From the IMG/VR virus record IMGVR_UViG_3300027741_000125, positions 1 to 42,575 of that record: a DNA stretch of 42,575 bases; one strand, given 5' to 3'. Under the pieces are notes generated by a model, which was not told where the DNA came from, ran no database searches, and saw nothing but the letters and a program-made list of their open reading frames with translations. The translations under genes were made by a program, and so were the position numbers. Below are positions 7,866 to 9,371 of the stretch, piece by piece. The first letter of the stretch is position 1, and every line of letters begins with the position of its first letter. This DNA comes from a virus.

Positions 7866-8684
7866 TCACTTGTCGCTAAATCCTGAAGGGAGGAAGTCCA
7901 TTTTAGAACCATTAATGATAACCATTTTCTGAATGCTACCATTAGCAAATGCAGCCTTGAGGATTTCGTTCCGTTGGTACTCAAGAGATTGAGTCGTCAC
8001 AGTAGAAGCAAGTGCCTTATTCTCTTCTGCTTTGAGTTGGGCAGTCTCGGTTTTGACTTGCTGCTCTTTAAGACCAGATTGTGCAGCAACTACACGATTC
8101 ACCGAGGCAACCAAATCATCAGGAAGGTCTGCCTTACCGACAATGATGGAGTCAATAGTAATCTTACCTTCCAGTCCGTTTTTCTTCAGTGCTTCAGTAA
8201 GATTTCCTTTGATAGTATCTTGAATCTGTTCCAAACTACTATTTACTGCAAGAGCAGGGAACTCATCAACCGACTGATTCACCGCAGAAGTAATCAGGCG
8301 AGAGATATAACTAGACATCAGTTGAAGTTGACCATTTGAAGCAATACCATGATTGGTCAAATCATAGTTGGTATAGAACTCATAAAGAGAGTTAGGATTG
8401 ATGCTGTAAGTTACAGTCACATCCATCTCTTTCATAATGGTATTATCTTTGGTCTTCGGGCGAAGGTCATTTGCCGTCACCGTAATCTTTCGGGTGTTGA
8501 AGACTTTGATACTACCAAAACCATCGTAGTTGATACCAGGGGCAAGAACCTCATTCTTCACCTGACCATCAAATCCTACGTATAGTCCATTTTCACCAGT
8601 GCTAATCGTGGTGAATTGTCCAGCAGTAAATGCAAGAACAATCACACCAGCACCGATACCAATACCAAGTTTTGCGAGAGACAT
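7866..8684 (-). CDS. SPFH/band 7 (prohibitin-like) membrane protein, 272 aa
   Basis: N-terminal membrane segment (LGIGIGAGVIVLAFTAGQ, residues 6-23), then the SPFH domain: ENGLYVGFDGQVKNEVLAPG, FNTRKITVTANDLRPKTKDN, VTVTYSINPNSLYEFYTNYD. Residues 200-235 (AQSGLKEQQVKTETAQLKAE) form the usual Ala/Glu/Gln-rich coiled coil. Length and order fit the prohibitin group. Family members assemble into large membrane-bound rings or scaffolds that influence membrane proteases. Phage copies may alter host membrane proteolysis, but this is inference. It ends its operon, below two other membrane or envelope-directed proteins. Confidence 0.87.
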   Translation of the reverse strand: MSLAKLGIGIGAGVIVLAFTAGQFTTISTGENGLYVGFDGQVKNEVLAPGINYDGFGSIKVFNTRKITVTANDLRPKTKDNTIMKEMDVTVTYSINPNSLYEFYTNYDLTNHGIASNGQLQLMSSYISRLITSAVNQSVDEFPALAVNSSLEQIQDTIKGNLTEALKKNGLEGKITIDSIIVGKADLPDDLVASVNRVVAAQSGLKEQQVKTETAQLKAEENKALASTVTTQSLEYQRNEILKAAFANGSIQKMVIINGSKMDFLPSGFSDK

Positions 8685-8716: not shown

Positions 8717-8878
8717 TCAATCAGTCGTTACGCCTGCGTATATAAACGCAATCGCAACAAAAAGTAAAAGGGCAAGAGGAATCATTTTGAGAAAGAACAA
8801 CACTGGAAGTCCTCTCAAAAGAAGAATGTAAAGTAGAACTGCTACCCCAAGTCCTACTCCGATGATTCTAGTAATCAT
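8717..8878 (-). CDS. Small two-helix membrane protein, 53 aa
   Basis: Two hydrophobic segments, IIGVGLGVAVLLYILLL (residues 5-21) and MIPLALLLFVAIAFIYAGV (32-50), separated by a short RGLPVLFFLK loop. Too short to be a classical holin with known motifs, though size and topology would allow it; no endolysin is adjacent, so I do not name it. It overlaps the 72-aa gene upstream by ATGA and precedes the SPFH gene, suggesting shared envelope function. Confidence 0.65.
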   Translation of the reverse strand: MITRIIGVGLGVAVLLYILLLRGLPVLFFLKMIPLALLLFVAIAFIYAGVTTD

Positions 8879-9093
8879 ACTTCATTAGTCCACTCAGCAT
8901 TTTGAATAAAGGATTTTGATTTGTCCCTGTTATTCAGAGGATGATCGTCATCCCATTCACCAATTTCTACAGATTGAACTGAATGAATTTTACTACAGAA
9001 GTATTTTTGATTTCTCAATTCATACTTCATAACTTCTAAATCCCAATCGCCATTTGGATCAAAACAAATAAGTTCAAATTTGTATGCTTTCAT
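8875..9093 (-). CDS. Small hypothetical protein, 72 aa
   Basis: Not recognised. Starts MKAYKFELICFDPNGDWDLE, followed by YELRNQKYFCSKIHSVQSVE and an acidic stretch with DDDHPLNNRDKS. It has the strand-rich layout of small phage regulators but no diagnostic motif. It lies 2 nt after the pilin-like gene and is probably co-translated with it. Confidence 0.65.
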   Translation of the reverse strand: MKAYKFELICFDPNGDWDLEVMKYELRNQKYFCSKIHSVQSVEIGEWDDDHPLNNRDKSKSFIQNAEWTNEV

Positions 9094-9095
9094 AA

Positions 9096-9293
9096 TCAGT
9101 TGTAAGTGCAGAGTTGAGTCATTCGTCCACGTTCATAACCTTCAGTCCATTTACCACCTTGAGAGAGGCAAGATTGCTTTGAAGGAATCACAGAGTTTCC
9201 ATTCATTGCACCAAAGGCAATCGTAACTACAATACCTACGAGAGCACCAGCAATAAGCAGTTCAACAAGAGTAAATCCTTTGTCGTTTCTCAT
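9096..9293 (-). CDS. Type IV pilin-like protein, 65 aa
   Basis: The N-terminus MRNDKGFTLVELLIAGALVG is a textbook type IV prepilin signal: a 6-residue basic leader ending in Gly6, Phe7 at +1, Glu11 at +5, then a hydrophobic helix to about residue 29. Prepilin peptidase would cut G|F. The rest is only about 36 residues and has Cys42 and Cys62, which could form the C-terminal disulfide loop found in many pilins. This is far shorter than normal pilins (about 130-160 residues). It is the first gene below its own strong early promoter. Known for the family: assembly into pili or pseudopili. Inferred: it may enter or block the host pilus machinery. Confidence 0.8.
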   Translation of the reverse strand: MRNDKGFTLVELLIAGALVGIVVTIAFGAMNGNSVIPSKQSCLSQGGKWTEGYERGRMTQLCTYN

Positions 9294-9316
9294 AGGGTTT
9301 TCAAATCAACAAACAT

Positions 9317-9371
9317 AGTATAGGGTGAATTGGTCGGTTATGCAAGGGGTCTTGTGACGGTTGGTCAAGTG
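9317..9371 (-). promoter_or_regulatory. Early promoter with CGTCACA upstream box (copy 3)
   Basis: Minus strand: box CACTTGACCAACCGTCACA (9353-9371), 7 nt, -35 TTGCAT (9340-9345), 17 nt, -10 TATACT (9317-9322), 24 nt above the pilin-like ATG. It shares GAGGRCACTTGA with copy 1 just beyond the box. Gap 9294-9374 holds nothing else apparent. Confidence 0.75.

Follow-up and report, generated by a model that had tools for sequence, protein, structure and literature searches.

The known cases in which a phage controls host pili come from a small number of Pseudomonas proteins, which bind PilB or PilC. In Geobacter, pili are built from the short pilin PilA-N with its partner PilA-C. Cyanobacterial pili control buoyancy, escape from grazing and DNA uptake, and the piliated, naturally transformable strain Synechococcus elongatus PCC 7942 forms a model pairing with phage BUCT-ZZ01. 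PfsE of Pseudomonas phage Pf4 is a very small phage inner-membrane protein that binds PilC and halts pilus extension (PMC8764522). Cyanobacteria have type IV pili that require PilD, and minor pilins take part in their DNA uptake (PMC12288463). Pili are present in about one in four marine picocyanobacteria (PMC7994388), and natural competence is thought to have been lost among the marine free-living picocyanobacteria (PMC12288463).

The window, i.e. the whole stretch of DNA that we analysed, covers an entire virus record of 42,575 bases. The best matches of its gp4-like head-closure gene were to Synechococcus T4-like phages (56-63% identity), and it also has a T4-type tail block; both indicate that the window represents part of a T4-like cyanophage genome (Kyanoviridae-like). 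The mini type IV pilin gene was taken from the list of open reading frames (9096..9293) and reads from 9293 to 9096 on the minus strand. Its product of 65 amino acids begins with MRNDKGFTLVELLIAG, ends with CTYN and contains two cysteines, C42 and C62. The leader MRNDKG precedes a mature chain of 59 amino acids (F7-N65), in which E11 becomes E5. The protein scored above the cut-offs of both Pfam N_methyl (PF07963; E 4.9e-8, 32.7 bits, cut-off 21.2) and NCBIfam TIGR02532 (26.1 bits, cut-off 16.3), and it was the sole N_methyl match within the virus record (E 2.2e-9). The N-terminal hallmarks of a type IV pilin were all found, namely a prepilin leader, Gly-1, an aromatic residue at +1, Glu+5 and a hydrophobic helix, both in the profile matches and in 25-26 of the 26 family members described below. 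Hence, the prepilin peptidase site and membrane helix reported in the first-pass annotation stand. A charged glutamate within a membrane helix is hard to account for other than by pilin docking. Judged by its sequence, the mini pilin is a genuine class III signal protein. The same annotation placed it far below normal pilin size; 65 amino acids is indeed small, but the solved short pilins of Geobacter geopilin domain 1 span 61-90 amino acids.

An initial search for relatives found two. A query of IMG/VR with the SPFH protein encoded downstream yielded 51 loci, 13 of which had a pilin upstream (4 of these 13 shared one pilin sequence), and a query with the C-terminal half of the pilin, independent of SPFH, yielded 43 loci. 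After de-duplication there were 26 distinct close members, including the window copy, of 63-74 amino acids. An N_methyl search across whole contigs added a second subfamily of three members; both groups are in T4-like cyanophage contigs. The check for cyanophage homologues suggested by the first-pass annotation thus returned 26 close members and three of a second subfamily, and its core observation of a very short, pilin-like protein encoded by a phage was borne out by the open reading frame, the profiles and the family. A chance open reading frame is ruled out by these 26 + 3 distinct members and by dN/dS ratios well below 1. Photosystem reaction-centre proteins were encoded in 5 of the 17 family contigs tested, and a T4-type portal in 7 of the 17. 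As judged from the contig genes, the host group of the family is cyanobacterial.

Gly-1 was retained in 25 of the 26 close members, and the aromatic residue at +1, Thr+2, Glu+5 and the two cysteines that had been pointed out earlier were retained in all 26. The C-terminal ending was near-invariant (Cx3GGKWxEGxxYGRxTQLCTYN); over the 26 members the essentially invariant pattern, in addition to both cysteines, was GGK-(W/Y)-x-EG...G...T-x-LCTYN-stop. Codons of the prepilin motif varied synonymously among the 26 members (GAA 19, GAG 7; GGA 21, GGT 4). Pooled dN/dS was about 0.41 for leader plus motif, 0.75 for helix residues 12-31 and 0.19 for the C-terminus, values that are approximate because synonymous differences were large. 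Near pairs mostly had a pN/pS of 0.07-0.32, with a single noisy pair at 0.81. These results imply that the processing site and the C-terminal hairpin are both constrained, while the remaining helix need only stay hydrophobic. The substitution patterns show the hairpin to be under purifying selection, and it is more conserved than the pilin helix. Among all fetched loci the hairpin was never found on another anchor; it followed pilin N-termini only, save in broken or altered copies.

The N-terminus was lost in four remnant copies (L120, L135, L153 and L155). Such broken copies indicate that the gene is accessory, as expected for a gene of host interaction. L115 had a serine at -1. In L128 (3896-4102) the frame was open and the hairpin intact, and the prepilin site had changed to KEFTSTKLL, without Gly-1 and with a lysine at +5. 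This natural variant could separate the role of the helix from that of the hairpin. The second subfamily (L157, L158 and L159) was located elsewhere in large related phages, with longer tails, the pattern CVRSGG[NS]WTEG...ALC.Y and decaying prepilin motifs (GLTRIEL, GFILIEL). Another copy (L114, 3881-4102; same record as L002) contained an in-frame tandem duplication of 33 bp in the pilin helix, with ELLICCAIGGI present twice; it lengthens the membrane segment and doubles the glutamate, and is either real or an assembly artefact. A genome scan for host copies with two patterns (KWTEGYE and the N-terminus) gave N-terminal matches only. Recent capture of a host minor pilin together with its C-terminus thus found no support from these two patterns, although host copies of the common GGKWSEG form may exist.

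AlphaFold, with 25 aligned members, predicted a helix at residues 9-30, a short helix at 39-44 and a beta-hairpin at 48-54/57-63 (mean pLDDT 74, pTM 0.36). A single-sequence run on a relative (L085) gave the same elements in the same topology. Cys42 was placed before the hairpin and Cys62 at its end, and their conservation suggests a Cys42-Cys62 disulfide. In place of a pilin-type globular head with a multi-strand beta-sheet, only the short helix and the two-strand hairpin were predicted. A structure search of the PDB (Foldseek) gave no significant fold match, and none to pilins. The nearest solved proteins by sequence were Geobacter geopilin domain 1 (E 5.7e-7 to 5e-4) and PilA pilins, with alignments confined to the N-terminal helix.

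Neither PilC/T2SSF (PF00482) nor prepilin peptidase (PF01478) was detected in any of the ten phage records searched (0/10), of which S-CREM1 and BUCT-ZZ01 are whole genomes, while the window and most contigs are incomplete; both were detected in the Synechococcus elongatus control. A complete phage-encoded pilus system, with platform and peptidase, was thus found in none of the ten records, which implies that processing must be performed by the host.

With moderate confidence, and reasoning from sequence, we consider the mini pilin to be a dummy minor pilin, processed by the host, whose role is to block or retune the type IV pilus of that host. The host Sec system would insert it in the inner membrane so that the C-terminus faces the periplasm; cleavage after Gly6 and methylation of Phe7 would fall to host PilD. 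The mature 59-residue chain would keep the helix and Glu5, i.e. the parts with which pilins dock to PilC and to neighbouring subunits, and the short disulfide hairpin would replace the globular head. By occupying PilC or the filament base, the mini pilin may compete for, cap or retune the pilus machine. The simplest effect would be blocked extension, so that pili are removed during infection, resulting in superinfection exclusion or in an infected cell without DNA uptake. The hairpin probably confers specificity by binding some conserved pilus protein or minor pilin of the host, and the SPFH and TM53 proteins of the same operon may act alongside the mini pilin in the membrane. What we infer here is the processing, the membrane topology, that the protein enters the pilus machine, in which direction it acts and how the phage benefits. 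PfsE, which acts through PilC, shows that a tiny phage membrane protein is able to stop pilus assembly (PMC8764522). The loss of competence in marine picocyanobacteria makes the version based on DNA uptake weaker for marine hosts. The destroyed site in L128, the serine at -1 in L115 and the decayed motifs of the second subfamily count against a dummy pilin.

The mini pilin is the first gene of a tight run of four on the minus strand. It is followed at 2 nt by a 72-amino acid protein whose annotation gives no function (8875..9093; PHROG 3154, E 5.9e-9 in PHROGs), then by TM53, a membrane protein of 53 amino acids in the list of open reading frames (8717..8878; 4-nt overlap with the preceding gene), and, 32 nt after TM53, by the last gene of the operon, encoding an SPFH/Band 7 protein of 272 amino acids (7866..8684; Pfam Band_7, 69.4 bits). 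The SPFH protein was 73% identical to that of Synechococcus phage S-CREM1. TM53 was also found beside SPFH in L113, L114, L140, L141, L146 and others, as well as in S-CREM1 and B23; the pilin was absent from these two Synechococcus phages. Further neighbours of the pilin were small membrane proteins and a lipoprotein. A second, head-like pilin subunit of the Geobacter type was not found among the neighbours (the 72-amino acid protein, TM53, SPFH, TM62, lipoprotein and coil genes). In one set of phages, a membrane protein of 135 amino acids that consists only of the SPFH C-terminal coil stands in for the full SPFH protein beside the pilin (L118:4559-4963, L123:5357-5758, L151:4114-4518). It belongs to PHROG 11227, labelled 'protease', and corresponds to positions 248-360 of PHROG 200 (E 2e-12).

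Such neighbours are compatible with a membrane-anchored envelope effector, in which the pilin N-terminus serves as signal and anchor and the disulfide hairpin acts in the periplasm with SPFH and TM53, independently of pili. It might, for example, bar the DNA of other phages, hold lysis or guard membrane proteins. We regard this explanation as possible, but on the unlikely side. Since the hairpin is the best-conserved part, more so than the helix, it may be the business end and the pilin part a mere anchor. Moreover, an SPFH gene or SPFH C-terminal coil lay within 1.6 kb downstream, often only 9 nt away, in 38 of the 42 loci with the C-terminal motif. These 38 do not represent as many independent events because many contigs are closely related, although two distinct arrangements are represented. 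This linkage, together with the small membrane proteins and lipoprotein nearby, suggests a membrane role beyond pili. Of 11 phages that encode short pilins, 9 also had SPFH; in Aeromonas phage Aes508 it immediately precedes the pilin, and in AhP_Mru1 it comes three genes earlier. Yet a plain anchor needs no G-1, F+1 and E+5, which selection has kept in 25-26 of the 26 members, and the shortest phage pilins lack any periplasmic domain. Furthermore, SPFH is common in large phages, and a pilin was nearby at just the 13 of 51 SPFH loci. SPFH adjacency as a universal rule was rejected: it is valid in the cyanophage family and the two Aeromonas phages, but not in KVP40, Aeh1, PX29, G1 or BUCT-ZZ01.

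Upstream of the pilin we found a promoter-like element, CACAAG...CCCTATACTA (9311..9356, minus strand), with a -10 of TATACT and a weak -35 of TTGCAT. The element, CACA[AG]...CC[CT]TATA[AC]TA, stops about 23 nt ahead of the pilin ATG (at 9316). It occurred 4 times in the window against a mean of 1.0 in dinucleotide shuffles, and 2-4 times in relatives against 0.03-0.12. In its general form, CACA[AG]-(up to 34 nt)-[CT]TATA[AC]TA, it recurs before many small cyanophage genes, often with a G/C inverted repeat inside; sites in the window are 9311-9356, 10028, 5115 and 42109 (minus strand), and others were seen in L116, L122, L147 and elsewhere. Judged by sequence, it resembles a class of promoters whose -35 is weak or missing. 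The first-pass annotation described the gene as the first after a strong early promoter, a claim that is only partly supported. The pilin is indeed the first gene after the element in the window, L116, L122 and L141, but 'strong' is unproven, as the -35 hexamer agrees with TTGACA in just 3 of 6 positions and its poor fit leaves the element below the threshold of the sigma-70 scan; the 'early' timing is likewise unproven. The pilin of most relatives lies inside an operon, immediately behind an upstream gene or overlapping it.

Short N_methyl genes were also found in unrelated lytic phages of Vibrio, Aeromonas, Pseudomonas, Delftia and Synechococcus, with products of 28-83 amino acids that are mostly annotated as 'hypothetical'. 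They measured 28 amino acids in Aeh1, 31 in PX29, 37 in AhP_Mru1 and 75 in Aes508, all Aeromonas phages, 66-82 in KVP40-type Vibrio phages (66 in KVP40 itself), 44 in Delftia phage PhiW-14, 59 in Pseudomonas phage G1 and 83 in the Synechococcus elongatus phage BUCT-ZZ01. Longer pilins were encoded by Acinetobacter phage Acibel004 (107 amino acids) and Xanthomonas phage PhiXhv-16 (99 amino acids). The shortest consist of leader and helix alone, without a periplasmic domain. Hosts of these short-pilin phages bear type IV pili. A query with a 30-residue consensus pilin N-terminus, which favours consensus sequences, matched 175 phage records: 49 from Synechococcus, 47 from Pseudomonas, 32 from Vibrio, 25 from Aeromonas, 10 from Acinetobacter, 3 from Xanthomonas, 2 from Delftia, 5 unassigned, 1 from Erwinia and 1 from Salmonella, the last bearing the name of a bacterial strain. 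Among the matches listed, the Synechococcus records were mainly ACG-2014f with a full-size pilin. None of the 175 came from phages of Escherichia, Klebsiella or Shigella, despite 661, 328 and 88 T4-like records, respectively. This distribution is what one would expect if the role requires type IV pili in the host, with phage phylogeny and host confounded. Going beyond the dummy pilin of the cyanophages, we tentatively propose that a pilin was cut down to leader and helix, in some cases with a tiny hairpin, independently in several unrelated lineages of lytic phages, and serves them as a general dominant-negative pilus jammer; the cyanophage hairpin would target a single host protein and cooperate with the phage SPFH scaffold.

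Marine cyanophages also encode full-size PilA-like pilins (L165:2947-3897, NC_047712.1, ACG-2014f; L166:2956-3912, S-CAM7). In ACG-2014f, the pilin of 126 amino acids is followed by a partner gene of 187 amino acids, beside psbA, psbD and talC, and in the two phages pilin and partner have the look of auxiliary pilus genes that form a pair. A run of four consecutive pilin-like genes (217, 143, 145 and 131 amino acids) occurred in three virus-classed contigs (L004:4032-5976, L008:5323-7271, L010:5327-7271), which may be cellular DNA or a phage with a pilin set; one relative was in a Dehalococcoidia bin (L038). They were rejected as relatives of the mini pilin, with no relatedness past the N-terminus.

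Phage photosynthesis genes keep the infected host running, and a pilin could likewise benefit the host by joining its pilus and maintaining or altering adhesion, buoyancy or DNA binding. The position of the ACG-2014f pilin beside photosynthesis genes and the ability of Geobacter short pilins to form pili are in line with this option, but the mini pilin has 65 amino acids, no globular head and, unlike Geobacter PilA-N/PilA-C, no adjacent second pilin, and its repeated loss and broken copies also make the option improbable. A pseudopilin-like aid to secretion or lysis, or a virion part, unrelated to host type IV pili, is very improbable: GspH and ComGE profiles matched weakly, well under their cut-offs and only by way of the common N-terminus, but the gene lies outside the structural block, in a region of small genes with its own promoter-like element, and no secretion platform protein was found in the phages searched.

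Pilin-like phage genes are already known as annotations ('pilin' in ACG-2014f, PilE-like in Acibel004, and notes in Aeh1, PX29, KVP40 and Aes508). The first-pass annotation mentions neither these entries nor the near-invariant hairpin and the linkage to SPFH genes. A literature search, with most subscription journals outside its coverage, found no paper on phage-encoded pilins. Apparently undescribed are the family with the Cys-flanked invariant hairpin, its SPFH linkage and the fact that helix-only pilins recur among lytic phages whose hosts are piliated. If true, a pilin mimic of lytic phages would be a different route to pilus control, one that exploits the host's own processing enzyme, and its recurrence over Vibrio, Aeromonas, Pseudomonas, Delftia and Synechococcus phages makes it testable in model strains. 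Given these functions of cyanobacterial pili in buoyancy, in escape from grazers and in taking up DNA, pilus loss during infection would have ecological effects.

Compared with known systems, the mini pilin shares with type IV pilins (PF07963, TIGR02532) the leader, Gly-1, the aromatic +1, Glu+5, the hydrophobic helix and a cysteine pair in the C-terminal region. It differs in its mature chain of only 59 residues, in a two-strand hairpin instead of a beta-sheet head, and in coming without pilus machinery. Geobacter PilA-N (geopilin domain 1) is a natural short pilin with a mature length of about 61 amino acids, but its likeness to the phage protein is limited to the N-terminal helix, and a PilA-C-like partner is present in Geobacter and absent from the phage. 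The pilin of ACG-2014f and S-CAM7 has the same N-terminal motif, but differs by its 126 amino acids, PilA-like head, 187-amino acid partner and other locus. The short N_methyl proteins of other phages (PHROGs 13280, 11263 and 10597; KVP40.0030, Aeh1p044, PX29 gp038, Aes508_086, G1 orf026, PhiW-14 gp119 and BUCT-ZZ01) have the same leader and helix, a single gene and a short or no tail; their tails are unrelated to those of the cyanophage family, hosts and lineages differ, and homology is apparent only at the N-terminus. PfsE of the filamentous phage Pf4 depends on Y16 and W20, and the accessible part of its description reports no prepilin motif (PMC8764522). It nevertheless resembles the mini pilin in size and membrane location, a likeness for which we claim no homology, and by analogy the two proteins may have a common mode of action on PilC.
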